A stretch of DNA of 24,722 nucleotides from a virus. Numbering within the stretch: position 1 is the stretch's first letter; each line of letters opens with the position of its first letter. The notes under the pieces are model-generated. The model ran no database searches. It had not been told where the DNA came from and saw nothing but the letters and a program-made list of their open reading frames with translations. Made by a program: the position numbers and the translations under genes. Below, piece by piece: positions 3,221 to 24,722 of this stretch. The stretch spans positions 1 to 24,722 of the IMG/VR virus record IMGVR_UViG_3300048925_000116; one strand, written 5' to 3'.

Positions 3221-3646
3221 TTAATTTGATGTCGGCCTGATATCTAATCCAGCATTAGTATCACCCGCGATCCTGAATTTTTGAGTTTCATTATTAGAAA
3301 TAACAGTGCTTGTTTCTTTATAAGGTTTACCGTTCCCGAAGCCGCATAAACCTCCACCTTTAGGATCATCAGCAATGCCTAAAATATGTCTGCCAGCTTT
3401 AACTTTATAAGTGAGGGTCTCGCCCGTGCCAATTCTAGCAATGTGAGTACCGTCGAGAGTTAAAGTTGTGAAACAGCCACCACCGACCAACCATCCATTA
3501 TCGCGCGTCACAATTAACTGAGCATCACCCCCACCCTGGGTTAAAACACGTTCATCTGGAACGATTTTAGCCTTGCTGGGTGAAACCGCTTCTGTTGCAC
3601 AGCCAACTAAGCCCACAATCGCCAGCGCCAGTATGATTCGCTTCAT
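3221..3646 (-). CDS. Small lipoprotein inserted between tail genes K and I (DUF2846-like)
   Basis: The 141-residue product begins with a type II signal peptide: KR, a hydrophobic stretch (IILALAIVGL) and a lipobox LVGC with Cys16 as the lipidation site. The residue after Cys is Ala, not Asp, so outer-membrane sorting is expected. The mature part has a small beta domain (VTLDGTHIAR..GETLTYKVKAGRHILGI-like) resembling DUF2846/PEGA-type lipoprotein domains, and Cys58/Cys100-type cysteines that might pair. It has its own AGGGAT site. Nothing in tail assembly requires a lipoprotein here, and it separates two genes that are normally adjacent, so it looks like a moron. Surface modification or exclusion of other phages is a plausible but unproven role. 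Confidence 0.8.
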   Translation of the reverse strand: MKRIILALAIVGLVGCATEAVSPSKAKIVPDERVLTQGGGDAQLIVTRDNGWLVGGGCFTTLTLDGTHIARIGTGETLTYKVKAGRHILGIADDPKGGGLCGFGNGKPYKETSTVISNNETQKFRIAGDTNAGLDIRPTSN

Positions 3647-9596: not shown

Positions 9597-9618
9597 GAAA
9601 AAGCGCCCGCAGGCGCTT
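9597..9618 (-). terminator. Terminator-like hairpin after the tail tube gene
   Basis: On the minus strand AAGCGCC pairs with GGCGCTT around TGCG, followed by further T residues and then CCCC. The tail tube stop codon overlaps its 5' arm. The short T-run makes it weaker than the others. Confidence 0.6.
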
Positions 9619-10087
9619 AAGAACCGGAGGCTACAATGCGTTTCGGCTTGCCTTTCACGCGCAGCGAATAGGTTGCGCCAACGACCTGAGATGTCGCTGC
9701 AGACCAGCTACTCTGACGAACTTCCACCAGCACATAAAAACCGTTACCGGAGGGGAAAACGACTTTCAACGCCCGCAGCTCGTCATTTTCATATGCCGTC
9801 TGCAGCGCCAGTTGCGCGGCTTCATCACCCACCCAGTTACGGGAAATGGACATTTCTGCCGGCGCCGCCAGGCCGTTGGTCTGCTCCTGCTCGGTGGAGC
9901 AGAGCGTGGTGACATCGATGTCACTTTTCTGGCCGCCTGTGTAGCTGATCTCCTTCGTGGCGCATTCAGCTTCAAGGAACGTCACGCCTGCCGTCGGGAA
10001 ACCTGCAGCCTTAAAATCGTCTTCTGTGACGGGTGAAGACGAGATACCGATCTGCGTGCCCTTTGTTTTTTCATACTTACTGGTCAT
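9617..10087 (-). CDS. Major tail tube protein
   Basis: This 156-residue protein is the predicted tail tube subunit, polymerising around the tape measure protein. Its position just before G/GT, its size and its beta-rich sequence (VTFLEAECATKEISYTGGQKSD.., SWSAATSQVVGATYSLRVKG) fit the small siphophage tube family without the extra C-terminal Ig-like domain of lambda V. A GGAGC site precedes ATG 10087. It is flanked by terminator-like hairpins on both sides, unlike the overlapping genes upstream, which fits a need for separately tuned high expression. Confidence 0.88.
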   Translation of the reverse strand: MTSKYEKTKGTQIGISSSPVTEDDFKAAGFPTAGVTFLEAECATKEISYTGGQKSDIDVTTLCSTEQEQTNGLAAPAEMSISRNWVGDEAAQLALQTAYENDELRALKVVFPSGNGFYVLVEVRQSSWSAATSQVVGATYSLRVKGKPKRIVASGS

Positions 10088-11285: not shown

Positions 11286-11612
11286 TCACATAATGGTTGG
11301 CCGGCGAAGGCTATAAATGAAAGCCGTCACAGAGAAAGGCAACTCACCGGGCTGCAGATCTTCCTTTTCCGCAAGGTCCGGGTTGCGGTATAGCATGCCC
11401 ACCAGGCGCATGGTTGACGCCTTCATGCGGGAAAGGGGCTCCCCCTGAATAAGATTGCCGCCGCTGTCCACCACCTTATCCCTGCACCCCTGGATATAAT
11501 CCAGAAGTACGGCGCTGGCCTCCTGGATTTTTTCTTTCAGCTCAGTGTCATCAATATCATGGTCAATTTTGAGGTGTGCCTTAATTTCCGCCAGAGTGAT
11601 CAATTCAATCAT
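11286..11612 (-). CDS. gp6-like head-tail connector protein
   Basis: This 108-residue, mostly helical protein matches the HK97 gp6 / SPP1 gp15 connector family: LITLAEIKAHLKIDHDIDDTELKEKIQEASAVLLDYI at the N-terminus is diagnostic. It forms a ring on the portal. The ATG overlaps the stop of the upstream repeat-bearing protein by 4 bases. Confidence 0.93.
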   Translation of the reverse strand: MIELITLAEIKAHLKIDHDIDDTELKEKIQEASAVLLDYIQGCRDKVVDSGGNLIQGEPLSRMKASTMRLVGMLYRNPDLAEKEDLQPGELPFSVTAFIYSLRRPTIM

Positions 11613-12826
11613 GGCCTGTCCCTCGCATCGCGCCCGCGTTTGGCCGCCAGTGTCCAGCCAGTCGAGCCGGGTTCACCAGGCTTGCCCTGAGTTTTCTCAT
11701 CGCAATGCCAGAGCGAACCACCCCATGTAACCGTATCACCAGGCAGATACTCATCACCGGACTTGAAAACGCCACGGTAAAGCATGATCGGCACATCAAA
11801 GGATTTGGTTTCACTGCCACCGCTCGAACGGTTTACCGTTAAGGTGAAATGCCGCTGGTCAGTGCGATCAATCTCGACACCTGCCACACCATCAACCACA
11901 CATTCCCAGCCGCGCATGCCGTGTGTTTTTTCGTATGCACGCCACAGACCGCCATTATGGGTTGCATATGACCCACGCGGATAGCTCTTACCATCATCAA
12001 TAAAAGGGAGTATCTCGAGCGCCAGCGCGTCGCGGCCATCTTCGCCATCCCTTGCGGGTTCAGCGGGTGGTATTGCGGCCACAGCATCAGCGATCAGCGA
12101 TTTGATATCGGGAAACACCGGCATAGATGCTGTAACCAGTTCCTCCAGCATAGGCTTAACATCGTCCGGCGTAATACTTTTCCCGTCCTGTGGTACCGGG
12201 ATGGAGCCCACCACTTCGCCTACTGCGTCGGCCACGGCCTGTTTCAGCACCACCGGATCATAATCTTTTCCGTTTTCCGGAACCGGTAGCTCGCTAAAGG
12301 CTTTATCCACCATCGCCTGCAGCATTGGTTGCATATCTTCCGGTGTGACGCTTTTACCGTCCTGCGGAACCGGGATAGCAGCCACCGCCTCACCCACCGC
12401 GTCTGACACGGCCTGTTTCAGCACCACCGGATCATAATCTTTTCCGTTTTCCGGAACCGGTAGCTCGCTAAAGGCTTTATCCACCATCGCCTGCAGTATT
12501 GGTTGCATATCTTCCGGTGTGACGCTTTTACCGTCCTGCGGCAGCGGCAGAGCAGCGACCGCTTCACTTATCATCAGGGCAATGTCGGGTAGTTGAGGTT
12601 CTGACGGTAAAGACATGGCAGCCACCGCATCGGCCACCATGGCAGCAATATCAGGAGATGGTGCGCCTTTAATTTCATCAATGGACGTTGAAATGCGCGA
12701 CAATTTTTTTTCAAATTCCTGGCGCTGTGCTTCGAGGGTTTTACTGAATACCTCACGCATTTCAGAAAGAACGAGGCCAAACTCTTCGCCTAACGCCTTT
12801 ATCAGAGATAATTCGCGTTCATTCAT
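11609..12826 (-). CDS. Head-module protein with coiled coil, tandem repeats and carbohydrate-binding-like C-terminus
   Basis: This 405-residue protein lies between the portal and connector genes, where HK97 has no such gene. Residues 1-50 look like a coiled coil. Residues about 55-260 are built of repeats of the type P(Q/E)DGKSVTPEDMQP..LQAMVDKAFSELPVPENGKDYDP, with two units of 58 residues almost identical in DNA. The C-terminus has two Gly/Trp motifs: GSYATHNGGLWRAYEKTHG, and YLPGDTVTWGGSLWHCDEKTQG with PGEPGSTGWTL. The second resembles the chitin/cellulose-binding CBM5/12 pattern. This looks like a trimeric or fibrous virion decoration near the portal vertex that could bind polysaccharide. 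ATGA overlaps link it to the genes on both sides. Function is inferred. Confidence 0.75.
   Translation of the reverse strand: MNERELSLIKALGEEFGLVLSEMREVFSKTLEAQRQEFEKKLSRISTSIDEIKGAPSPDIAAMVADAVAAMSLPSEPQLPDIALMISEAVAALPLPQDGKSVTPEDMQPILQAMVDKAFSELPVPENGKDYDPVVLKQAVSDAVGEAVAAIPVPQDGKSVTPEDMQPMLQAMVDKAFSELPVPENGKDYDPVVLKQAVADAVGEVVGSIPVPQDGKSITPDDVKPMLEELVTASMPVFPDIKSLIADAVAAIPPAEPARDGEDGRDALALEILPFIDDGKSYPRGSYATHNGGLWRAYEKTHGMRGWECVVDGVAGVEIDRTDQRHFTLTVNRSSGGSETKSFDVPIMLYRGVFKSGDEYLPGDTVTWGGSLWHCDEKTQGKPGEPGSTGWTLAAKRGRDARDRP
12233..12541 (-). repeat. Tandem 174-bp repeat inside the head-module protein gene
   Basis: The block 12233-12367 recurs at 12407-12541 with a 174-bp offset. By eye the two copies differ at one base in about 135. 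The offset is 58 codons, so the reading frame is kept. A third, diverged copy is recognisable in the protein (PQDGKSITPDD). Near-identity suggests recent duplication or gene conversion. Confidence 0.92.
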
Positions 12827-14377: not shown

Positions 14378-16318
14378 TTAGCTGCCCTGGGTGGTGCCGT
14401 AGTTAACGCCGGAAATAACAGCAACGGCAGCAGTACGGCGGCGTTTCCAGTTGATCCAGCGCTCAGCACGGATGGCCACACTGTTCGTCTGGAACATGGA
14501 AACCAGCTCGGTACCTGTCGGCGTGATGCTGTCGCCAGTCGGATCGCTCTCCATTTCCAGAGACGCCTCGCGGGACATATCGACAGCAACACCGCCATCG
14601 TCAGCAAGGTACACATCCGGTGCATTAACCAGCACAAGCAGATTGCCAACGTACTGGGAGACAATCACCGGAAGGCCCTGGAAGGTCCCCCCAAGCAGTG
14701 TCATTTCCGGGTACTCTTTCTGACCCAGCGCGTTTTTACGCATCGACAGAGCAAGTGCGGTAGTACTGGACATCAGCCACACCGCACCATTTGGTTGCAG
14801 GCTGGCGGCAACGAACACCCCAAATGCCGCCGCCGCATCATCATCAGGGTTACCTGTTGACGGAATGGCGGCGATGCCGTTGGTGATGGATGCCGGAGAT
14901 ATACCGGCAACCTCTGCTTTCGACGGGGTGATAAAGTCCGTGTCCAGGCGCGCGATAACCGCCTCAGCCAGGGCGTTGCGCACCAGCGCGTCTGCAGCCG
15001 GGTTGGAAAAACGGATCAGTTCATCAGTGAGCACAGCAATTGCGGCTACTTTCGCAAAACTGAACGTAATCGACGCAAAGTCAAACTTCGTCAGCGGCTT
15101 GGCCTTACCCTGGCCAACCCAGTTTGCGGAACCACCGGAGGTCTGCGCCGGAATGCGGATGTTGAACGGTACCTGACGCAGTGCCGGGATATTACCCTGA
15201 CCAAAACGGCCGATGATCGTCTGTGGTCGCAGGAAATCCACAAAATCCTGTGCATAGTCCTGATACTCCACCAGCGCCCCGGCCCATGTCGGGTCAGTCG
15301 TGGTCCCGGCCCCTACAGCAGCCTTGAGAACATGATGGAGCTTCGCATCATCCGGATACTGCTTGCGGGCGATCTCCAGCGCTTCTGAACGGCTGCCATT
15401 CGCAGCGGCCAGAGCTTTGGCGAAACGGGCAAATGCAATGCCTTTTTCCAGCTTCTGTTCAACGCGGATGATACCTGGTGCGCTGGTTGTCACGGTGGTT
15501 ACGTCGCCGTTTGCAGCTTTGCTGACTGGCTTCGCTGTGATCGCAAGATTTGCTTCCATATCACGCAGGCGCTTAAGGTGCGCATCCACGGACTTGATTT
15601 CAGCGGACGTGTTGTCGTAGCTCTCTTCTTCCTCAGCATCCAGGGTACGGCCATCATCCGCCGCCTTCGCCATGATTTCAGAAAGGGAAGCTGCCAGCGC
15701 TGCACGTTTAGCTTCAAAGCTTTTGATTTGTTCTGCGATATTCATCGACGAGTTTCCTTTATTAATATTGATTTTCGGTGCTGTGGCGCCAGCGGGCTTA
15801 TGTGCTTTAACCACGGGTTTCTCATTGCCTGACGCGGCGAGTAACTGGCGGTCAAAAGATTTAACGGTCTGGATAGAGCATTCGGCGTTCGCCGGAATGG
15901 TCACTGCGGAGACTTCAAGCAGATCCCAGGACAGAAAGCGGATGCCACCTTCATCGAGGAACGAATATTCGATGGGGCGAAATCCGATAGACAGCCCGCG
16001 AACCAGCCCGGCCTTAATAGAAGCCCAGGCCTCATCAAGACGGGCTGCAAGCTGCGATGGCATGTCAGGCGTTGGTTTCACCAGCTTTGCGGTAATTTCC
16101 AGCCCCTCTTTCACCATCTTTGGCGTGCAAGTGCCGACAGGCTGGGAGCGGTCATGCTGCCAGAGGAATGGGGTATCGCTGCGGAACTTCGCGCCCCCCG
16201 GCTCCATGATGTCACCATCACGGTCAGGTGAAGGCGTGGAGGCGATGCCGGTGATTATCCGTTCGTCCTCATTTACCGCCTTGACCGTCATGATGGTACA
16301 TGCGCGGTTAAGGGTCAT
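14378..16318 (-). CDS. Fused prohead protease and major capsid protein (HK97 fold)
   Basis: The 646-residue product joins two proteins that are usually separate. Residues 1-160 match the HK97 prohead protease family: FLWQHDRSQPVG with the likely catalytic His55, GLVRGLSIGFRP with the likely nucleophile Ser110, and WDLLEVSAVTIPANAEC. Residues from about 192 on match the HK97 major capsid protein, beginning with a helical scaffold (delta) domain (MNIAEQIKSFEAKRAALAAS..), then the coat core (QVPFNIRIPAQTSGGSANWVGQG, VAAIAVLTDELIRFS, LGGTFQGLPVIVSQYV). An AGGAGG site precedes ATG 16318. An internal ATG at 15745 has its own ribosome-binding site, so free capsid may be made as well. The capsid stop is followed by a stable hairpin. 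Confidence 0.93.
   Translation of the reverse strand: MTLNRACTIMTVKAVNEDERIITGIASTPSPDRDGDIMEPGGAKFRSDTPFLWQHDRSQPVGTCTPKMVKEGLEITAKLVKPTPDMPSQLAARLDEAWASIKAGLVRGLSIGFRPIEYSFLDEGGIRFLSWDLLEVSAVTIPANAECSIQTVKSFDRQLLAASGNEKPVVKAHKPAGATAPKININKGNSSMNIAEQIKSFEAKRAALAASLSEIMAKAADDGRTLDAEEEESYDNTSAEIKSVDAHLKRLRDMEANLAITAKPVSKAANGDVTTVTTSAPGIIRVEQKLEKGIAFARFAKALAAANGSRSEALEIARKQYPDDAKLHHVLKAAVGAGTTTDPTWAGALVEYQDYAQDFVDFLRPQTIIGRFGQGNIPALRQVPFNIRIPAQTSGGSANWVGQGKAKPLTKFDFASITFSFAKVAAIAVLTDELIRFSNPAADALVRNALAEAVIARLDTDFITPSKAEVAGISPASITNGIAAIPSTGNPDDDAAAAFGVFVAASLQPNGAVWLMSSTTALALSMRKNALGQKEYPEMTLLGGTFQGLPVIVSQYVGNLLVLVNAPDVYLADDGGVAVDMSREASLEMESDPTGDSITPTGTELVSMFQTNSVAIRAERWINWKRRRTAAVAVISGVNYGTTQGS
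15745..15760 (-). promoter_or_regulatory. Internal ribosome-binding site for free capsid protein
   Basis: On the minus strand AAAGGAAA lies 7 bases before an in-frame ATG at 15743-15745 (Met192 of the fusion). The protein starting there, MNIAEQIKSFEAKRAAL, begins like a normal HK97-type capsid precursor and would have 455 residues. Confidence 0.75.
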
Positions 16319-16376: not shown

Positions 16377-18035
16377 TCATATGAAAATTACCTGATAATC
16401 CTGTTTCTTCGCCTCAGGATTCAGCGCCATAAGCGAAACCGCGTTGAACAGCGCCATAAGCGGGTCGATTTTCCCCTTACCGCTGGCCTGTTTGGTAATG
16501 AGGATGGCATTACCTTTAGGCTCAACCCTGGCATTGCCGACACACCAGGACATCATCGGCTGTCCGGCATGAATCAGCACCCCCTCGGCAAGCTTGCGTT
16601 CCGTGGTTTTTATCGCCCCGCCAAGACGCCAGCCCTGACTGACACCCACGACGGAATCAGCCGGGATTTCCGCTTCAATCAGGGCATCAAGAATTTGCCC
16701 CACGCCCGACGGGTCAATGCCAATTTTGTCGAGCAATTCAGCGGCGTGTATACGGCTGACATACTCAGCCACTTCCTCCGTGTCCTGTCCGACGCGTTTA
16801 ACGATGGTCAAATCACCGGCTTTCACGAAATCACTGAACCGGGACTCTTCGCTTTTGCGGCGTCTGATGGCTATCTCATGCGCCCAGGCGTGGCACCAGC
16901 AAAGCCATTCACGGGTTTCACCATCACGGCCAACGGCAGAAAAGCCCAGCAAATCGTCAAGACCGCCGCCATCGATTCCGACAGTGACCACCTCGGCGCG
17001 CCGGAGCAATTCCTCAAACGTCACCTTTCTGGCCTGCTGCTCCCAGAAATCCACTCCCGCCCAGCGGTCAGTACGCAGATTCAGGCCGATCTCAATGTTG
17101 AGGTGTTTGGCAAGAAACTGCTGCAGGGTTCCGTCAGTCTTCGCCTGATTTTTGCGAAGGTTATCGGCTATCCATTCAGAACTGACGGACAAACCGATGT
17201 TAGGATTGGTGATGTAAAAATTTTCTGGCTCGAGATATGCCTTGCTTTCAACCATGCTTTCCGGGAATTCGTAAAGAATCCCCAGTGTCTTAGGATCATG
17301 TAGTTTGCCATCACGCACATCACGCCAGTAATCCAGCCGTTCCTTAAACACCCCTGCAGGGGGCTCATCGCTTTGCGTGGTCAGGTAAATCACCCAACCT
17401 TCATTTCGCGAGACCTGCCCGCCCAGTGCCTCCATAAACATCGCTTCTGCGTTAGCACGCTTGCCAAACAACCAGAGCTCATCCACCAGGACGCGGCCCG
17501 ATTTTTTGCCGGAAACGGTGTCGGTATCAGCAGCGACAACTTTCAGCGTGTTACGCGTGACCCGGTGTGTGATGGTGCGAATGTGATCCTGGATCTGGAA
17601 CATATCCGACAACTCCTCGTCTGCACGTATCATCCCGGCGGCAGGCTTGAAACTGTTGTCGGCTACTTCCTTCGTCGGTGCCAGAATCAAATGCTCTTCG
17701 TCCTCACGCCAGCAAAGGATCAGCGCCGTCAGCATGATCCCGGCCGCGATGGTCGATTTTGTGTTTTTCTTCGATATCAACAGCCCGTATTCACGAATCA
17801 ACTGATTGCCGGTATCAGCCTCATAACCACCAAAGATGGCTTTAACAAAATCAAACACCCACTCCTCGGAGCATTCACCGAACGTTGGCTTGCCAGGCAG
17901 GTCAGAAACTCGCAGTTCACGAAATATACCCAGCGCCTGCTTCGCCTGGTCAGGAAAAATAGGGGGGGGAATGATTGACTGCCTGCTAACCAGAAGACTT
18001 TCCCAGTCAGGGCAAGCCGTGGACCATTGCGCCAT
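16377..18035 (-). CDS. terL: Terminase large subunit
   Basis: The 552-residue product is the ATP-driven DNA packaging motor and nuclease. The ATPase domain shows a Walker A-like SKKNTKST at 88-95, Walker B RVLVDEL with Asp185/Glu186, and a coupling motif YLTTQSD at 217-222. The C-terminal RNase H-like nuclease has VGIDGGGLDD at 352-361 (Asp355), IGIDPSGVG further on, and GKIDPLMALFNAV near the end, supplying the metal-binding acidic residues. A GGGAGGG site precedes the start, 3 bases after the TerS stop. With the HNH gene upstream, this is the packaging set of cos-type HK97-like phages. Confidence 0.96.
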   Translation of the reverse strand: MAQWSTACPDWESLLVSRQSIIPPPIFPDQAKQALGIFRELRVSDLPGKPTFGECSEEWVFDFVKAIFGGYEADTGNQLIREYGLLISKKNTKSTIAAGIMLTALILCWREDEEHLILAPTKEVADNSFKPAAGMIRADEELSDMFQIQDHIRTITHRVTRNTLKVVAADTDTVSGKKSGRVLVDELWLFGKRANAEAMFMEALGGQVSRNEGWVIYLTTQSDEPPAGVFKERLDYWRDVRDGKLHDPKTLGILYEFPESMVESKAYLEPENFYITNPNIGLSVSSEWIADNLRKNQAKTDGTLQQFLAKHLNIEIGLNLRTDRWAGVDFWEQQARKVTFEELLRRAEVVTVGIDGGGLDDLLGFSAVGRDGETREWLCWCHAWAHEIAIRRRKSEESRFSDFVKAGDLTIVKRVGQDTEEVAEYVSRIHAAELLDKIGIDPSGVGQILDALIEAEIPADSVVGVSQGWRLGGAIKTTERKLAEGVLIHAGQPMMSWCVGNARVEPKGNAILITKQASGKGKIDPLMALFNAVSLMALNPEAKKQDYQVIFI

Positions 18036-18038
18036 GAA

Positions 18039-18551
18039 TTACCCTCCCTTGTTATTGACGACCAGTTTTGGCGGAGCCATAGAGCCAAATTTTCCCGCGC
18101 CAGCGGCCACCTTCGCCGCCGCGTTTTTGGCATCTTTTTTCCCTGTCTCCCCTTTTTTGGGGTGAATATAGGGAAGCATTGCCTTTGCAGCATCTTTCCG
18201 GACGTCAATGTCTTCGCCTGTATTGTTCATCACCGCCATGAGGAACTTGAGCGGATCGTCATAAACCACCGCCACCGACGGTGAGGTAGGCGGTGATTCC
18301 GGTGGGGATGTTTTTTCGGGATTGTTTACCACTGGGGTATAAACATTTTTTCGGTAGATCGGAACCTCATCAACCTCGACAGTTTCCTTGTTTTTACGCC
18401 CAATAAACGCGATGACTTCCGGGTCTTTAGCCAGTTGCGAACCCTTAGACCGTGCGGATTTCTCAGAATACCCCGCCTTTATTGCCGCATCTTTTTTAGA
18501 CATACCGGACATCAGCGCGACCGCGAATTTTCGCTTTTGCGCTGTTAACAT
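18039..18551 (-). CDS. terS: Terminase small subunit
   Basis: The 170-residue product has an N-terminal helix-turn-helix (QKRKFAVALMSGMSKKDAAIKAGYSEKSARSKGSQLAKDPEV-type, residues 5-45) typical of the terminase_2 family, which recognises cos/pac DNA. A Pro/Ser-rich linker around residues 75-95 follows, then an oligomerisation helix (DPLKFLMAVMNNTGEDIDVRKDAAKAMLPYIHPKKG) and a Lys/Ala-rich tail. GGAGGG lies 8 bases before the start. Its position directly before TerL agrees. Confidence 0.93.
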   Translation of the reverse strand: MLTAQKRKFAVALMSGMSKKDAAIKAGYSEKSARSKGSQLAKDPEVIAFIGRKNKETVEVDEVPIYRKNVYTPVVNNPEKTSPPESPPTSPSVAVVYDDPLKFLMAVMNNTGEDIDVRKDAAKAMLPYIHPKKGETGKKDAKNAAAKVAAGAGKFGSMAPPKLVVNNKGG

Positions 18552-18700: not shown

Positions 18701-19069
18701 TCAAATCACCACGATATGCTGGAACTCCTCAGCCGCGGGCACCGCATGCTTCAGTGCTTCCTCATCAGGCTGCCTGGTTGCCGCTTCCCGCGCCGATTTC
18801 CCGGCGTGACATCCTTTGCACAGGGTCCAGAGATTACGCTCTGAGTTGTCGCCGCCGAACTGCAACGCGATGCGGTGATCAAGCTCGCTCTCGTGCAGCT
18901 CAATAACGCGGGCGCACATGCAGCAATGACCGCCGTCGCGTACCCAGATGCGACGTTTAAGACTGACGCGGGCGCTGCCGCTGATGCGGCGCTGCTCTCC
19001 GTATACAGGCTTGATCCGACGGGTATCGATAACCTTAAGTCGGGGCTTTAATGTCGTCAGCTTAGTCAT
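18701..19069 (-). CDS. HNH endonuclease of the packaging module
   Basis: The 122-residue product has a zinc-binding HNH domain: Cys49/Cys52 and Cys84/Cys87 bind the structural zinc, and Asp64-His65, Asn79 and His88 form the HNH triad. HNH proteins next to terminase work with the terminase in cos cleavage (HK97 gp74 type). I chose ATG 19069 because GGAGG lies four bases before it; an upstream Met at 19111 falls deep inside the previous gene. The gene overlaps the small glycosyltransferase by 8 bases, so it is translationally coupled to that cassette. Confidence 0.93.
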   Translation of the reverse strand: MTKLTTLKPRLKVIDTRRIKPVYGEQRRISGSARVSLKRRIWVRDGGHCCMCARVIELHESELDHRIALQFGGDNSERNLWTLCKGCHAGKSAREAATRQPDEEALKHAVPAAEEFQHIVVI

Positions 19070-19655
19070 ACAACCTCCATGCCCGTCGGCGCTCAGTTCG
19101 CGCTGTGCCATCAGGGTGACGCTCTACCGGTTCCCCGTCGGCATGATCCACCAGTGACCAGCAGGGATAAACCACCGGACCACCATATGCATTGCCCACG
19201 GCATAATCAGCAGCAGCGCTGTGATCCCATCGGGCCAGTACATCCGCAACCTTTGCAACCGGCACGCTGTAGCACACGCCATGAATCAACTGAGGAAGGG
19301 TAATGAAGTCAGCCCGCGTCTTATCAGCAGCAATCAGACGCTCAGCTATCGCCGCCTGATACTGAGGCGGGCGACCCGTGCCTAGGTAGAAGCTGATGAG
19401 ATCGTCAGGCTTATCATTGAGCCAGGCGCTGACCTTCTCGACGAAGCCATGCACAGGCCGAGCATCATCCTCCACGACTACGACCCGACAGTTCTGTCCG
19501 GCAGCCCATTCAAGCGCACGACGGTGATTCCAGTTTGCCCCGTGGTCTCCGGTATCAATCAACAGAACGGCGCCAAGAGATTCAGCCAGGCTAAGCGCCT
19601 GCTTGTGTCGGGAGTGATGACCGACAACGACAAACTTTATTTGTGCTGCCACCAT
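19062..19655 (-). CDS. Small glycosyltransferase-like protein (GT25-like)
   Basis: This 197-residue protein starts with a beta-strand/loop (IKFVVVGHHSRHKQALSLAESLG) and carries VVVVEDDARP at 58-67. That acidic motif resembles the metal/nucleotide-sugar site of GT-A enzymes, especially GT25-type LPS transferases. Residues 143-171 (DHSAAADYAVGNAY..VVYPCWSLVDH) resemble the acceptor-side Asp motif of such folds. The start has AAGGAGT upstream and overlaps the large glycosyltransferase by 19 bases. It is shorter than most GT25 enzymes. A sugar-transferring function is likely; donor and acceptor are unknown. Confidence 0.7.
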   Translation of the reverse strand: MVAAQIKFVVVGHHSRHKQALSLAESLGAVLLIDTGDHGANWNHRRALEWAAGQNCRVVVVEDDARPVHGFVEKVSAWLNDKPDDLISFYLGTGRPPQYQAAIAERLIAADKTRADFITLPQLIHGVCYSVPVAKVADVLARWDHSAAADYAVGNAYGGPVVYPCWSLVDHADGEPVERHPDGTARTERRRAWRLYD

Positions 19656-21100
19656 GCGTACTCCTTACCGATACCGTTTGTTTTGAATACTGTATGTACG
19701 CGAGGACCGGTGACCAGGCGATCACTAAACCGACGAGCCACAATGCCGAACGCAAGCATGTCGCCAACGGCTGCTGCAGCCGATTCTTTCTTCCAGAACC
19801 GGTTGCTTTCAGTCAGGTAATAAAGACGCACGATACCGTGAGCAATCGCCATGACATCCTCACGGGTGCCACCCAGCAGGCCTGCATTCAGCATTACATC
19901 ATTGCGGTGCTGCTCAATGAATTGCTGGTAGATGCTTTCGGGATGGTTGCTGGCTGCCCACGGGTCAGAATAGGTTTTCGGTTCGGAGCCAACGTAAATC
20001 TTGCCCTGCTCCATTTCTGCCCACGGCGCATGCAGCATTTCGACATCGGTCCCATCCGTGCACCAGACGAACCGGTATTCAGGATGATCCCGAAGGTGCT
20101 GCCAGATGTGCAGCCAGCGGCGGAAGTAGACATTCATCTTCACGTCAGGAACCCGCCACAGTTCAACGTCTGACGGTACGCTGGTCAGTTCATCCACCAG
20201 CGCGATACGCCCACACTGCCTAAGCGATGCAGACCACTTAGCCAGCATGTCAGGCGAGGCCGCCATTTTAGAACCGCGCTGCGTATCAGGCTGACTGGTG
20301 AGCAGCGTTGTGATAACCACGTCGCGCAGATGCCGGTATTCAACGTAACCAGTGAAACCTGTATCCCGCCGTTCGTTGTGGATCTTCACGTTACGTTCCA
20401 CCAGCGCCTGTCGGTCCGGTTTCGGTACCGAACGTTCCACTGCTTCATGTTCATCAAGGGAATGGATCAACTTTTCGGAGCCAGTCACATCAGCGTAAGC
20501 CCACGATGTCATACCCGCGTTATGGATGCGCAATGCGAGATCGCTGTGTTCGTACATCCCGCGACCATAAACCGGATCAAATCCACCCACTTTCTCTATG
20601 GCGCTGCGGTGGTAATACAGCATCACGCCACGCTGCCCGGTATAAGCAATGTGCTTATCGTCACGATAAAGAACAGCTATATCATTGAGCTTGTTAGGCC
20701 CAGCCAGATCAAGGAACTGATAAGCCAGATGCGGCTCTGGTGATTCGATATAAGGAAGATGCCAGTTATCGGCAATCGGCCATGCATCATCGTCAAACAA
20801 AAACAGATGTTCGCACCCTGCATCCATCAGGGCTGTCAGGCTGGCGTTCTTTGTAGTCACAATACCCTGTGAGGTTTCCAGACGAACAAGTTCGACGCCT
20901 TCCGGGATAGTTGCGGCAGGCTGTGAGCCATCATCTATAACCACAAGTAACGAACCAGCCGGGAGATAGTTAAGATGTTGCTCAATAGCCCTGGCTAAAA
21001 CTGCTGGCCTGTTGTGCGTGGTAATTGCTATGCCGATCCGTGCTGATACGCTACTGGCGGGAACATACGGGACACCATCAATAGTGACCTGCATAGTCAC
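19637..21100 (-). CDS. Two-domain glycosyltransferase (GT2 plus second GT-A-like domain)
   Basis: The 487-residue product has an N-terminal GT2 domain: GIAITTHNRP at 23-32, VVIDDGSQ at 53-60, LFLFDDDAWP with the DXD-type acids at 103-105, and GGFDPVYGRGMYEHSDLALRI at 172-191, the usual acceptor-side motif. From about residue 260 a second domain begins. It has FVWCTDGTDVEML at 344-356 and DVMLNAGLLGG at 401-411, which resemble the DXD and NAG-loop motifs of GT-A enzymes such as GT8-type. The gene overlaps its neighbours by 4 and 19 bases. No membrane segment is seen, so a cytoplasmic enzyme is expected. Acceptor candidates are virion protein, phage DNA or a cell-envelope glycan; the sequence does not decide. 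Confidence 0.85.
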   Translation of the reverse strand: MTMQVTIDGVPYVPASSVSARIGIAITTHNRPAVLARAIEQHLNYLPAGSLLVVIDDGSQPAATIPEGVELVRLETSQGIVTTKNASLTALMDAGCEHLFLFDDDAWPIADNWHLPYIESPEPHLAYQFLDLAGPNKLNDIAVLYRDDKHIAYTGQRGVMLYYHRSAIEKVGGFDPVYGRGMYEHSDLALRIHNAGMTSWAYADVTGSEKLIHSLDEHEAVERSVPKPDRQALVERNVKIHNERRDTGFTGYVEYRHLRDVVITTLLTSQPDTQRGSKMAASPDMLAKWSASLRQCGRIALVDELTSVPSDVELWRVPDVKMNVYFRRWLHIWQHLRDHPEYRFVWCTDGTDVEMLHAPWAEMEQGKIYVGSEPKTYSDPWAASNHPESIYQQFIEQHRNDVMLNAGLLGGTREDVMAIAHGIVRLYYLTESNRFWKKESAAAAVGDMLAFGIVARRFSDRLVTGPRVHTVFKTNGIGKEYAWWQHK

Positions 21101-21774
21101 TTCCTCGCGTACAGTAAACCACCCGGCTTGAGCGCATTGGCAATGGCATCTTTCACCACCTGATTAACGCTTTCCGTAATAGCAGCCTGAGTAGATGCCA
21201 GATCCGCCATCGCCGCATCTTGTCGGGCTAGTGCTGCTTTTGTCGCTTCAATAACAGCGTTAGCCGCCTGCTGGATTTGCTGCTGGATGGTGGGTTCACC
21301 GCTGGCGCTGACCTCACCCGTCACTTTGAAACGGTCAGCCCTGAACTCCACCGACTGCTGCTCGTCGCCAGTTGGTTTCTCAACGAACTGACCGCTTTCA
21401 CGAACAGCGGCAATAACAGCGTCACGCATCGAATCAGTCAGCCTGACCTTTGTCAATGCCGGGTTGATGTGGAGAACGCCTTGTAGAGTGGTGTTATTAA
21501 TGAACGTATCCCCCGCTCCAATCTGAAAATCCGCTTTCTTGCCGAAGCGACTTTCCACCAGGTAACTGATTGCGAACTCTTGCCCGGCAGGAGTGAGAAA
21601 GTTGAAATGGTGCTCACCACAGAACGGCGTTACCGTGTCCTGCGTCATCACGTAACCGAGTTCACGCAGTTCAGCAGTGCCAGCCTTTGATGGCAAGTCA
21701 CCATCCACCAGCGCGCCACGGAAGAAAAGCGCATGCAGGACATCGCCAGCAGCGCCGGAAAGTTCTTTGTTCAT
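21097..21774 (-). CDS. Unrecognised 225-aa protein leading the glycosyltransferase cassette
   Basis: The N-terminal 75 residues look like a small winged-helix-type domain (GDVLHALFFRGALVDGDLPSKAG.., FLTPAGQEFAISYLVE). Residues about 78-150 (KADFQIGAGDTFINNTTLQGVLHINPA, VEFRADRFKVTGEVSASG) faintly recall the DUF1983-type C-terminal region of phage tail tip proteins. Residues 163-217 form an Ala/Gln-rich amphipathic helix. AAGGA lies 8 bases before ATG 21774, and its end overlaps the large glycosyltransferase by 4 bases. It may be the substrate or partner of those enzymes, but no function is recognised. Confidence 0.75.
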   Translation of the reverse strand: MNKELSGAAGDVLHALFFRGALVDGDLPSKAGTAELRELGYVMTQDTVTPFCGEHHFNFLTPAGQEFAISYLVESRFGKKADFQIGAGDTFINNTTLQGVLHINPALTKVRLTDSMRDAVIAAVRESGQFVEKPTGDEQQSVEFRADRFKVTGEVSASGEPTIQQQIQQAANAVIEATKAALARQDAAMADLASTQAAITESVNQVVKDAIANALKPGGLLYARK

Positions 21775-22187: not shown

Positions 22188-22265
22188 TTAGTGAATGCCT
22201 GTTGTAATTCCCATTGTGAATGCAATGAAAATACCCCGAATCAGCAGATTCACGAACCATGACAT
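22188..22265 (-). CDS. Possible 25-aa single-span membrane peptide
   Basis: The frame MSWFVNLLIRGIFIAFTMGITTGIH begins one base after the YnfU-like stop codon, with AGG four bases before the ATG. The core is hydrophobic with one Arg, as in small prophage membrane peptides. Its tight spacing after the zinc-ribbon gene suggests coupled translation. It is too short to be certain. Confidence 0.45.
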   Translation of the reverse strand: MSWFVNLLIRGIFIAFTMGITTGIH

Positions 22266-22266
22266 A

Positions 22267-22431
22267 CTACCTGTGAATGACAAAAAGTGATTTACATCTA
22301 GGACAAAGCAGCGGTGATTGCTGGCGTACTTTCGCGGTTGAGTGGTTGGAATGATGCCCACATATCGGACACATAACACTTGTGTTCGCTACCAAGCCAA
22401 CACGCTTCATTGCGTAATCGAAAAATGACAT
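22267..22431 (-). CDS. ynfU: YnfU-like zinc-ribbon protein
   Basis: The 54-residue product starts MSFFDYAMKRVGLVAN and has two knuckles, CPIC (Cys21, Cys24) and CPRC (Cys43, Cys46), followed by KSLFVIHR. This is the pattern of the YnfU family of zinc-binding proteins found in lambdoid prophages such as Qin of E. coli K-12. AAGGTAAG lies 7 bases before the ATG. An extended -10 promoter and a palindrome lie upstream, so it may be transcribed independently of the late operon. Molecular role is unknown; zinc binding is predicted from the four cysteines. Confidence 0.8.
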   Translation of the reverse strand: MSFFDYAMKRVGLVANTSVMCPICGHHSNHSTAKVRQQSPLLCPRCKSLFVIHR

Positions 22432-22460
22432 GATGACTTACCTTTCAATGAATGAGACTC

Positions 22461-22492
22461 ATCATATCATGATTTGGTTATTTTTTAACCAA
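22461..22492 (-). promoter_or_regulatory. Extended -10 promoter and palindromic operator upstream of the YnfU-like gene
   Basis: On the minus strand TGATATGAT (22469-22461) is an extended -10 element. A perfect 7-bp inverted repeat TTGGTTA/TAACCAA with a 5-base A/T loop (22474-22492) covers the -20 to -38 region. This placement suits repressor control. The -35 match is poor. Confidence 0.5.
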
Positions 22493-22566
22493 AAAAGAAG
22501 TGCTATTTGGTACTATGCAATAGATGAATTGTAAATTTCAGTCAGCAAATACCAAACTTAATTACC

Positions 22567-22797
22567 TCACATAGTCACAAGAATGCGAGTGCATCTCCAT
22601 GGAGAACGGCACCATATTTGATGAGGTAAAGTGACCATAATAATGTCTGTTATCACATAATATGTTTCTGTTTCGTCCTGTTGCGGGGGTGCCTCACATA
22701 AGTACATTACACCGCTAAGCACATGTATTTTTACGTCTTGGGTCCCATCAGTAATTTGCTGCCAAACGGGGGTAATTATCATATCTCTCATTGACAT
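22567..22797 (-). CDS. Unrecognised 76-aa protein
   Basis: The product MSMRDMIITPVWQQITDGTQDVKI.. is beta-rich (VKIHVLSGVMYLCEAPP, TYYVITDIIMVTLP) and ends in WCRSPWRCTRILVTM, with three Cys. GGAGAAAC upstream of ATG 22797 is a good ribosome-binding site. It reads like a small conserved virion or capsid-associated beta protein of lambdoid phages, but I do not recognise the family. It lies after a terminator-like hairpin in the small-gene cluster. Confidence 0.65.
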   Translation of the reverse strand: MSMRDMIITPVWQQITDGTQDVKIHVLSGVMYLCEAPPQQDETETYYVITDIIMVTLPHQIWCRSPWRCTRILVTM

Positions 22798-22917
22798 AGT
22801 TTCTCCATACCCCTTGTCAAAGGTAATAAGGATAAAGGCTCATAACGTGAAGAGTGTACAATTACAGCCCTTCGCATGGAGTGGTATAACTGCTCTACAA
22901 ATTTATGTCGGTAATGA

Positions 22918-22940
22918 GAAAAAACCGCCCGAAGGCGGCT
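22918..22940 (-). terminator. Terminator-like hairpin after the 48-aa gene
   Basis: On the minus strand GCCGCC pairs with GGCGGT around a TTCG tetraloop, followed by TTTTTT. It lies four bases after the stop of the Asp/Pro-rich small protein. It is probably the terminator of the promoter at 23284-23313. Confidence 0.78.
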
Positions 22941-22943
22941 ATG

Positions 22944-23090
22944 CTAAAAAGGCTTTAAGGGTTTATCTGGATCATTAATGTCAGGCAAATCAGGTTCTAA
23001 AGGGTCCTCATTTGGCGGTAACCATTCTGGATCATCCGGTACTGGTTTGTCTGATGGCAGTGGGTCATCGTAATTGGGTTGCTGAGACAT
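22944..23090 (-). CDS. Asp/Pro-rich small protein (48 aa)
   Basis: The frame reads MSQQPNYDDPLPSDKPVPDD and continues with repeated DP/PD/LP motifs to DPDKPLKPF. It is very acidic and Pro-rich, so probably disordered. A strong GGAGGT site lies 5 bases before the ATG, which supports expression. It sits between the 40-aa Lys/Glu-rich gene and a terminator, so the two form a short operon of oppositely charged small proteins. The function is unknown. Confidence 0.7.
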   Translation of the reverse strand: MSQQPNYDDPLPSDKPVPDDPEWLPPNEDPLEPDLPDINDPDKPLKPF

Positions 23091-23135
23091 AATACCTCCA
23101 GCATTTTTAAATTTCTTTGCGTGAAGACCTGACCG

Positions 23136-23258
23136 CTATTTTTTATCGCGGTTAGGTTTATTTTTTTCCGAGTGATTTCGTTTATCAGAATCGGAACGCT
23201 TATCCGATTCTTTTTCTTTTTCTTTTTCATGGGCAATATTCGAACCGTTGATATTCAT
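23136..23258 (-). CDS. Lys/Glu/Asp-rich small protein (40 aa)
   Basis: The frame starts MNINGSNIAHEKEKEKESDK and ends in NKPNRDKK; it is almost entirely charged and very likely disordered. GGAG lies 7 bases before ATG 23258. It is the first gene after the promoter at 23284-23313 and is followed 45 bases later by the 48-aa gene. No family is recognised. Confidence 0.6.
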   Translation of the reverse strand: MNINGSNIAHEKEKEKESDKRSDSDKRNHSEKNKPNRDKK

Positions 23259-23283
23259 GATTAACTCCATTTGTGGTTGCAGT

Positions 23284-23313
23284 ATTTTACCGCCATTTGA
23301 TAGTAGCTGGCAA
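23284..23313 (-). promoter_or_regulatory. Sigma70-like promoter for the small-gene operon
   Basis: On the minus strand TTGCCA (-35, 5 of 6) is followed by an 18-bp spacer and TAAAAT (-10, 5 of 6). Transcription would begin near 23277, about 20 bases before the 40-aa gene. It could express the small genes in the lysogen, independent of late antitermination. Confidence 0.65.
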
Positions 23314-23763
23314 AGTGAAATAAAGCGAGCGCCACGGCTGACGCTATTTTTTACTAAAAAAACATTTCAACGATGAAATAAAAGAATAAATCCCTTTTCC
23401 CATTCAAACCAAAAAATTGCTTACACATCCCAAAACACACCTTACCTGTTAATTCAATTGAATTTTTATTTATGATTTTTTTAAAATAAAATTAAGATGA
23501 TTTTCAAACTTGTTATTCATAATAACATAGAATAAAAGTGCTATTTAATCTCGCCTGACCAGTTAACAGCTTAATTAATAAAGATATTTCATCTTTAGCT
23601 CGTCATTAGCAAACTAGCTTAATCATGATTATTTAATATAAATTCTTATACTCATATCCATTCGCTCTGAAAAGTACATACATCGTAAATGTAGAACGCA
23701 ACGAATGGTGCTTCTTATTGTACCATTCTCGAACCAGATGGATTTCCCATTCAAAGAGATTTT
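23314..23763. other. AT-rich gene-poor stretch with alternative inverted repeats
   Basis: No convincing gene is present in 450 bases. From 23340 to 23657 the DNA is very A+T-rich, unlike the head genes, as in silenced foreign DNA. At the right end three short segments can pair in two ways: CCATTCG (23658-23664) with CGAATGG (23702-23708), or GAATGGT (23703-23709) with ACCATTC (23722-23728). Confidence 0.6.
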
Positions 23764-23937
23764 TTATTCCAGGTACTGTTGACAAACATCCCTCCGCAGA
23801 CCAGTTAATTGGCTTGTAACGGCTTCAATTTACTCTCTGAGACGCCAAAAATCCCGTTCAGCAGCGTCGGAAAGCGTCAATGTCGCATCAACTCATGCGC
23901 TTTCCTGCATTGTCACCGGTATTCGGTGAATGTCTGC
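23764..23937 (-). pseudogene. Decayed C-terminal remnant of a second Rz spanin
   Basis: Read on the minus strand, 58 codons give a sequence ending SDAAERDFWRLRE-stop-IEAVTSQLTGLRRDV..YLE-stop. The AERDxxxLRE motif and spacing match the Rz C-terminus (lambda: AERDYFTLRERL), and an upstream stop lies where lambda has the SGVD segment (stop-VDATL). Two in-frame stops make it non-functional. It has diverged from the intact Rz tail at 24627-24722, so it is not a recent copy. It shows that a lysis cassette boundary once lay here. Confidence 0.78.
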
Positions 23938-23968
23938 TCAAACGATAACGATGATGTACGCGCTTTAA

Positions 23969-24004
23969 GATAAGTCTGAATAGCGCAGTCAGACAAAACT
24001 TATC
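23969..24004. repeat. Bulged inverted repeat, next to a direct repeat
   Basis: GATAA + GTCTGA pairs with TCAGAC + TTATC with a 5-base bulge and a 9-base loop. The right arm overlaps ACAAAACTTAT (23993-24003), repeated exactly at 24037-24047. The arrangement resembles an operator/promoter region before the putative plus-strand RNA. Confidence 0.55.
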
Positions 24005-24049
24005 CCGCGCTTACGCTTGTTAAATATTCGTTACCAACAAAACTTATTA

Positions 24050-24190
24050 TGTCTCATAAGGCAAGAGCGCCTCGCCAGGGCTGATCTCAGGGATGAGGAT
24101 TAACTCCTCTCATCAGTTCTGGCTGGCCCGCTTAAAGCCCATAAAAGCAGAACGGCATATTGAGCCCTACCACGATGGGGCTTTTTTTTC
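24050..24190 (+). ncRNA. Possible plus-strand small RNA in the Rz-flanking insert
   Basis: A segment without a convincing gene can form a long stem-loop: GCCAG (24074-24078) with CTGGC (24119-24123), CTGAT (24081-24085) with ATCAG (24112-24116), and GAGGA (24095-24099) with TCCTC (24105-24109). It ends in a strong intrinsic terminator. No good promoter is visible upstream. The layout, structured RNA then terminator then a small gene, recalls isrK of the Gifsy-1 prophage, but I claim no homology. The 5' end is a guess. Confidence 0.4.
24163..24190 (+). terminator. Strong intrinsic terminator on the plus strand
   Basis: AGCCCTA pairs with TGGGGCT (one G-U pair) around CCACGA and is followed by eight T residues. 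It shows that a plus-strand transcript, opposite to the late genes, ends here. Confidence 0.85.
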
Positions 24191-24302
24191 AGATAAAGAT
24201 TAAACACTGATCAGAGACCACTGGTATACACAAACTACACACTAGTACTATGGGCAAATTCTCATACTTACGCATGCTTTATCTGGCTGTTATTTTTGCT
24301 CG

Positions 24303-24331
24303 TTCAAAGTTTTAGATCTTAACGGTATAAG
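24303..24331 (+). promoter_or_regulatory. Candidate promoter of the 60-aa gene
   Basis: TTCAAA (-35, 4 of 6), a 17-bp spacer and TATAAG (-10, 5 of 6). The leader would carry a perfect GTGGG/CCCAC hairpin at 24350-24364 before the ribosome-binding site. Confidence 0.45.
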
Positions 24332-24405
24332 TCGCCGTATCTGCCACCTGTGGGTTCACCCCACTCGAATGTAGTACAAACGATTCGTCACGAGGAAAGA
24401 CTGTC

Positions 24406-24588
24406 ATGCCTACAGTGAAAGCTATCAGTTTAGAGCAAGCTCATAAGCTGCTTAAGTCCGGAAAACACACGGCGGTCGAGTTAGATTTCGATGTTGATGC
24501 CGATACCTTTTTTGCACTTTCTTCTGAGTATTGTAAGCACGGAGCAAAAATCTCACGACATGAAAATCATTTTGTTATAAAGACGTAA
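24406..24588 (+). CDS. Unrecognised 60-aa protein transcribed against the late operon
   Basis: The product MPTVKAISLEQAHKLLKSGK.. looks like a small alpha/beta domain: an N-terminal helix (SLEQAHKLLKSG), a strand (TAVELDFDV), a second helix (ADTFFALSSEYCKHG) and a final strand (NHFVIKT). GAGGAAA lies 8 bases before the ATG. It is the only clear plus-strand gene in the window and sits directly after Rz, the place where lambda carries the reverse-oriented bor gene. That fits a moron expressed in the lysogen. Its family and function are not recognised. Confidence 0.7.
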   Translation: MPTVKAISLEQAHKLLKSGKHTAVELDFDVDADTFFALSSEYCKHGAKISRHENHFVIKT

Positions 24589-24626
24589 AGAGCAGAAATC
24601 CCAGCGCTTAATTAAGTCTTGTTCAG

Positions 24627-24722
24627 TCAGTCCATACACTGCTCACGGACATATTGTTGCAGGCCCGACAGTTGCTTAGTGACGGTTTCGATTCGCTCTC
24701 TGAGGGTGAAATAATCCCGTTC
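24627..24722 (-). CDS. Rz: Rz inner-membrane spanin, C-terminal end only
   Basis: The last 31 codons before the stop read ERDYFTLRERIETVTKQLSG followed by LQQYVREQCMD. This matches the lambda Rz C-terminus (ERDYFTLRERLITMQKQLEG) with no break. Rz is the inner-membrane spanin that, with Rz1, fuses inner and outer membranes at lysis. The rest of Rz, Rz1 and any endolysin and holin genes lie beyond the right edge. The frame is intact, unlike the remnant at 23764-23937. Confidence 0.9.
   Translation of the reverse strand, partial: ERDYFTLRERIETVTKQLSGLQQYVREQCMD

Follow-up and report, generated by a model that had tools for sequence, protein, structure and literature searches.

Predicted glycosylation of virion proteins at a C-terminal serine by a two-gene glycosyltransferase cassette of enterobacterial lambdoid phages

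Virion glycosylation has reportedly been described by Freeman et al. (2023, Cell Host Microbe 31:1216) in the mycobacteriophages Che8 (gp108-110) and Corndog. Published work describes gp110 of Che8 and gp38 of Corndog as indispensable for glycosylation of the capsid (PMC12363180), and places the glycans of Mycobacterium phages at the C-termini of the capsid and tail-tube subunits (PMC12619734); glycosylated capsids of some mycobacteriophages were also mentioned in an initial annotation of the DNA considered here. Virion glycosylation has so far been known mainly from phages of mycobacteria, and sequence comparisons now lead us to predict it for hundreds of phages of gut-type bacteria. The locus analysed lies on a stretch of 24,722 nucleotides (positions 1 to 24,722 of the IMG/VR virus record IMGVR_UViG_3300048925_000116; hereinafter, the window) and carries, on the minus strand like all the open reading frames (ORFs) of the cassette, two adjacent glycosyltransferase (GT) genes: GT1 (19637-21097), coding for a protein of 485-487 amino acids, and a GT25-like gene (19062-19655), coding for a protein of 197 amino acids with an EDDA motif. 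It is very likely that these two enzymes glycosylate the phage's own virion proteins, and the predicted substrate is the serine that ends the major capsid protein and the tail tube.

Glycosyltransferases of the window and their closest relatives

The GT25-like protein falls within phrog_854 (glucosyltransferase; profile search, E 4e-68) and did not match any Pfam family up to an E-value of 1. No GT25 Pfam profile was thus matched, and the name GT25-like is used here as a label only. The protein is homologous over its length to Che8 gp110 (36% over 94%, E 1e-25; with hhalign, E 1e-23 over 184 columns). As in the window, the GTs of Che8 precede an HNH gene and the genome end/TerS, and the capsid (KTGS) and the tube (SDGS) end in Gly-Ser. 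Unlike the window, Che8 harbors three separate GTs (391, 232 and 211 amino acids) and no significant homologue of GT1; moreover, its host is mycobacterial, whereas the cassette of the window occupies the interval between the lysis genes and TerS of enterobacterial lambdoid phages. Phage Wee (cluster F) possesses both a GT1 homologue (44.6% over 99%) and a glucosyltransferase gene (gp104 and gp108); as in the window, an HNH gene follows the GTs, and the capsid and the tube end in KTGS and SDGS, respectively, but a kinase gene and two small ORFs are interposed between the GTs, the order being GT1 homologue, kinase, small ORFs, glucosyltransferase, HNH, genome end, TerS and TerL. Overall, GT1 is 44-45% identical to GTs of mycobacteriophages from cluster F and elsewhere, the alignments covering 97-100% of GT1.

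GT1 was assigned to phrog_1579 (glycosyltransferase; profile search, E 3e-242). Its domains span approximately residues 20-255 and 256-486, and the columns invariant in alignments A1 and A3 are D102-D103-D104 in the first domain and D348/D351 (WCTDGTDVEML) in the second. A first AlphaFold model, built from 64 close relatives, was poor (predicted local distance difference test, pLDDT, 56); after the addition of relatives down to 42% identity (alignment A3), AlphaFold2 succeeded, with a pLDDT of 85.9 and a predicted template modelling score (pTM) of 0.74. Probing the PDB with this model, Foldseek retrieved 402 matches at E < 0.001, the top ones being the dual-domain GT-A enzymes PmHS2 heparosan synthase and K4CP chondroitin polymerase, followed at lower ranks by alpha-1,3-galactosyltransferases and a polypeptide GalNAc-transferase; sequence-profile searches of the PDB retrieved no matches. 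For GT1, which the initial annotation had described as a two-domain glycosyltransferase to be checked by structure prediction, a GT-A fold was thus confirmed, at the level of a predicted structure, in both domains. PmHS2 and K4CP, the best PDB fold matches, likewise carry two GT-A domains per chain; the identity with GT1 is 11-12% and the whole-chain TM is about 0.3, so that the domain folds match and their relative placement differs. Furthermore, PmHS2 and K4CP are polymerases, whereas no evidence of polymerisation by GT1 emerged here.

Two observations concern other GT1 genes. That of HK542 (L002, 1298-2755) is annotated 40 codons too short, its open frame yielding 485 amino acids as in its relatives. 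A GT1 that is 65% identical occurs at 10001-11443 of L542, labelled Puerhibacterium puerhi (an actinobacterium), with neither a GT25 gene nor obvious phage neighbours.

The predicted fold bears on the idea that the GTs glycosylate the packaged phage DNA against restriction, which we regard as extremely improbable. The DNA glucosyltransferases of T4 are GT-B enzymes, whereas GT1 is predicted to be GT-A. Hydroxylated bases are the substrate of many phage glycosyltransferases (cited in PMC12619734); a hydroxymethylase of the thymidylate synthase family (PF00303), however, was found in 0 of 13 cassette-bearing records, a search limited to that route, and a modification of DNA would leave the C-terminal signature described below unexplained. 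Of the two substrates initially envisaged, virion protein or packaged DNA, the former is strongly supported by the homology with Che8 gp110 and by the Gly-Ser signature.

The C-terminal Gly-Ser signature of capsid and tail tube

A Gly-Ser terminus is borne by exactly 2 of the 23 proteins of the window, namely the major capsid protein, with TTQGS, and the tail tube, with VASGS. The former is a protease-capsid fusion of 646 amino acids (14378-16318, minus strand) ending in NYGTTQGS, with the Gly-Ser codons at 14381-14386; the latter is a short tail-tube subunit of 156 amino acids (9617-10087, minus strand), homologous to the major tail subunit of HK97/HK542 and ending in KRIVASGS, with the Gly-Ser codons at 9620-9625. 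Both are predicted acceptors. In a background of 102 annotated proteins (HK97; N15, lambda and TM4 in part), 9 end in Ser and 2 in Gly-Ser, these two being the HK97 capsid and HK97 gp6; the C-termini of TM4 are VAPAA and VISV.

In several genomes, the GT genes lie next to those for the capsid or the tube. The pair is located directly after the capsid gene in Leminorella (major head SPASGS, major tail INQGS) and between portal-side genes and the tail-tube gene in a Brucella prophage (major head GGNAGS, major tail EGAGS), while GMA2 and Phendrix, phages of Gordonia, have a homologue of GT25 and another GT among their head-tail and tail genes. In GMA2, TGS is the end of the major head protein, of the protein following it and of the major tail protein; the C-termini of Phendrix are NSGS, GTGS and VTGS, and its head-tail adaptor ends in QAGS. 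ENT47670 has the pair directly 3' of the major tail gene; of its 21 proteins read, only the tube (PSS) and a structural protein from the capsid region (ATS) end in Ser. In a jumbo Klebsiella phage, a head/packaging-type structural protein ends in SAGS and the major head protein in PAS.

Phage-encoded GTs might instead modify the host surface polysaccharide (O-antigen or lipopolysaccharide, LPS, core), either as a lysogenic conversion or by stopping the progeny from sticking to debris and infected cells, and PHROGs files both phrog_1579 and phrog_854 under moron/host takeover. We judge this improbable for the cassette. The GtrABC systems of O-antigen conversion are also based on phage-encoded glycosyltransferases, but they need the GtrA flippase and GtrB, whereas GtrA (PF04138) was found in 0 of 13 cassette-bearing records and the cassette of the window includes no membrane-bound glucosyltransferase; hydropathy analysis of its four proteins (the two GTs, the HNH and the 225-amino-acid proteins described below) revealed no membrane spans, the maximum over 19 residues being <= 1.4. 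The lack of flippase and membrane spans, held initially to speak against a gtr-type change, was thus verified; as evidence against LPS modification it is weak alone, because in Haemophilus and Neisseria the GT25 enzymes assemble the LPS core in the cytoplasm and need no flippase of their own. Surface modification is further opposed by the separate gtrABC operon that ENT47670 carries beside the GT pair, and it would leave unexplained the capsid/tube signature, the homology with Che8 gp110 and the insertion beside capsid and tube genes.

The glycosylation of virion proteins finds additional support in the way the signature is distributed. Considering the distinct capsid C-termini of enterobacterial phages, Ser is the last residue in 55 of 55 from GT-positive and in 1 of 9 from GT-negative phages. 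With sequences clustered at 90% identity, a terminal Ser is present in the capsids of 19/19 GT-positive versus 2/5 GT-negative clusters (p 0.005) and Gly-Ser in the tubes of 18/21 versus 4/15 (p 0.0005); it counts against our interpretation that the clusters are still related, so that these p-values are indicative only, and that the GT-negative capsid sample consists of only 5 clusters. Within the short-tube family, Gly-Ser is kept in all 40 GT-positive contigs and lost in three out of nine GT-negative ones, and the residues preceding it vary widely. Moreover, GT-positive contigs carry short tubes in 40 cases out of 49 and tubes with an immunoglobulin (Ig) domain in 5 out of 49 (p 4e-13).

Alternatively, the terminal Ser of these proteins might be inherited from common ancestors of the capsid and tube modules that accompany the cassette, the GTs acting elsewhere; phage modules are indeed mosaic and related, and some GT-negative phages keep Gly-Ser. 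This, too, appears improbable, as Ser follows the presence of the cassette even inside individual tube families (HK97-, HK022- and window-type). Where HK97 continues into an Ig-like domain, GT-positive tubes whose body resembles that of HK97 (83-94% identity) stop at ESGS or DPGS, and HK022-type tubes end in EQPGS, AQAGS or KSGS when GT-positive and, in most GT-negative cases, in VVTP, AAS, ASA, SD or GD. Furthermore, the signal recurs in window, HK97, Leminorella, Che8 and Gordonia types, treated as separate families, and the linkers preceding Gly-Ser change freely. Lastly, the terminal Ser is encoded by TCN codons in tubes and by AGY codons in several capsid families, and the use of both sets argues against a simple descent of the motif.

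A number of observations weigh against glycosylation of the terminal serine. ENT47670 ends in TS/SS instead of Gly-Ser, and the jumbo Klebsiella phage, whose capsid ends in AS, gives partial support only. The HK97 and HK022 capsids keep SSGS without a cassette (the capsids of their close relatives L266 and L268 end in FSAD), and several GT-negative contigs retain Gly-Ser tubes; in the four of these read (L190, L194, L211 and L213), the capsid-region ORF ends in Ala. No GT was found in the 28-kb fragment L601, which has both a Gly-Ser tube and a Gly-Ser capsid, and five GT-positive contigs have Ig-domain tubes lacking Gly-Ser; in 4 of 4 capsids read from GT-positive contigs with Ig tubes, the Gly-Ser capsid end is kept. 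Neither a GT25 gene nor any Glycos_transf_2 protein was found in the GT1-negative contigs with Gly-Ser tubes that were checked, and among all GT1-negative contigs checked HK633 is the only GT25 carrier. HK633 (L647) harbors a GT25-like gene without GT1, a capsid ending in SSGS and an Ig-domain tube.

On the whole, we infer the following scheme for virion glycosylation. GT1, with its two GT-A domains, and the GT25-like enzyme would form a cytoplasmic O-glycosylation module. Its product would be a short glycan attached to the last serine, usually within Gly-Ser-COOH, of the major capsid subunit; in most phages the tail-tube subunit would receive one as well. The C-terminal Ser, the sole hydroxyl residue common to the tails (ANPGS, VAAGS, KTGS), would be the acceptor; one domain would attach the first sugar to it, and the others would extend the glycan. 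In siphophages such as lambda, the C-terminus of the tube bears a surface domain, so that a glycan placed there should be exposed. The outcome would be a virion bearing hundreds of identical small glycans, and this surface coat may benefit the phage by serving for adhesion or shielding instead of the Ig-like domain of the tube. We consider it more probable than not that this represents a general C-terminal code, in which a free terminal serine, usually Gly-Ser-COOH, is the acceptor for a mobile two-gene cassette, and in which the cassette and the Ig-like tube domain are exchanged as alternative decorations across phages of Gram-negative and actinobacterial hosts.

Organization and distribution of the cassette

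As initially read, four genes overlapping by 4, 19 and 8 bases lead into TerS and TerL. The first codes for a protein of 225 amino acids (21097-21774, minus strand), which we call mini-J; its 4-base overlap with GT1 is given by a GTG start at 21100, and the relatives of GT1 start at the ATG at 21094. The overlap between GT1 and the GT25-like gene amounts to 19 bases. The HNH endonuclease (122 amino acids; 18701-19069, minus strand; PF01844, E 7e-07; phrog_589) overlaps the latter by 8 bases if it starts at the ATG at 19069, a start supported by the alignment with the SP-016 homologue, which begins there; the longest HNH ORF runs from 19111. This gene adjoins the terminase genes, about 150 bases separating it from TerS, the small subunit (18039-18551, minus strand; PF03592, Terminase_2; phrog_641), which is followed by TerL, the large subunit (16377-18035, minus strand; PF03354/PF20441; phrog_9).

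The overall order is lysis genes, a gene-poor stretch, mini-J, GT1, GT25, HNH, TerS, TerL, capsid and tail. The lysis genes S, R and Rz are carried by a 49-kb virus contig, whose compared stretches are 100% identical to the window over 10-12 kb, and lie at and beyond the right end of the window. In the promoter scan, sites were no more numerous than in shuffled sequences, which makes no case for a lysogenic promoter. The cassette would thus be expressed late, since it lies downstream of the lysis genes and lacks a convincing promoter. The gene-poor stretch (about 22190-24630), i.e., about 2.4 kb from Rz to an 82-amino-acid gene, is AT-rich and has almost no convincing genes; it contains two terminator-like sites on the minus strand (22940-22923 and 21908-21895).

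Relatives of GT1 are encoded by 569 IMG/VR stretches, and both GT1 and GT25 were found in 236 of the 246 related loci examined, so that their arrangement is not due to chance. In 126 of these 236 paired loci the two genes overlap as in the window; in many others they are 500-780 bases apart. Inserts of approximately this size recur in the gap (for example, L005, 1296-1808), and in mEp390 an HNH gene fills it, which suggests that the cassette is a target of homing endonucleases. In HK542, mEp390, Fostie and SP-016, members of both GT families occupy the interval from the lysis genes to TerS. The pair of the window is a member of the same phrog_1579/phrog_854 families, in the same place, as that of these phages and ENT39118, where it is annotated merely as glycosyl- or glucosyltransferase; HK542 and mEp390 lack the mini-J gene. 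Host genomes with the cassette include Phytobacter, Enterobacter, Citrobacter, Kosakonia, Pantoea, Erwinia, Rahnella, Leminorella and one Brucella.

The 4-base overlap with GT1 might indicate that mini-J is itself the substrate, a tail-tip accessory made sticky by sugar. Its family, with members of 69-325 amino acids that exchange their N-terminal modules and conserve a PGG motif at the C-terminus, comprises proteins with Phage_Tail_Tip (PF09327) and fn3-like pieces of the central fibre J; several members match J domains, and the window protein itself has no direct match to them (PF09327, phrog_31). Mini-J genes are found just before GT1 (window, L019, L027, L047, L083, L104 and L177) or before the genome end. 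However, they also occur without such GTs, as in N15, where gp59 is a homologue and the right end has none, and in the GT-negative contigs L089-L091, L094 and L191; many GT loci have another gene or no such gene upstream, and the C-terminus of mini-J lacks the Gly-Ser signature. We therefore set mini-J aside as a substrate, a role that we hold to be very improbable. Its co-occurrence with J (48/50) is uninformative, as nearly all such siphophages carry J. Judging from these comparisons, the 225-amino-acid protein is no enzyme and belongs to a mosaic tail-tip-like family found also without the cassette; it is probably a passenger of the cassette, and probably works independently of the GTs, either as a decoy or in association with the tail.

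Elsewhere in the window, the 405-amino-acid protein encoded between the capsid-side and tail genes (11609-12826) has long internal direct repeats (VPQDGKSVTPEDMQP...), a region that aligns several times to the near-identical contig. Among the minor tail genes there is a lipoprotein-like gene coding for 141 amino acids (3221-3646; MKRIILALAIVGLVGC...), moron-like in appearance.

Implications for lambdoid phages

If the interpretation is correct, it adds an experimentally convenient host group, with an acceptor prediction that is specific and testable. HK97 (no cassette, Ig tube) and HK542 (cassette, short Gly-Ser tube, same capsid C-terminus) represent a ready-made comparison, which allows one to ask what the sugar coat does and whether a C-terminal serine serves as a glycosylation site of proteins here at all. 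The presence and the target of the modification would be predictable from the last residues encoded by the capsid and tube genes. In turn, glycosylated virions would be common among the lambdoid phages and prophages of Enterobacteriaceae, including the classical coliphages HK542 and mEp390.

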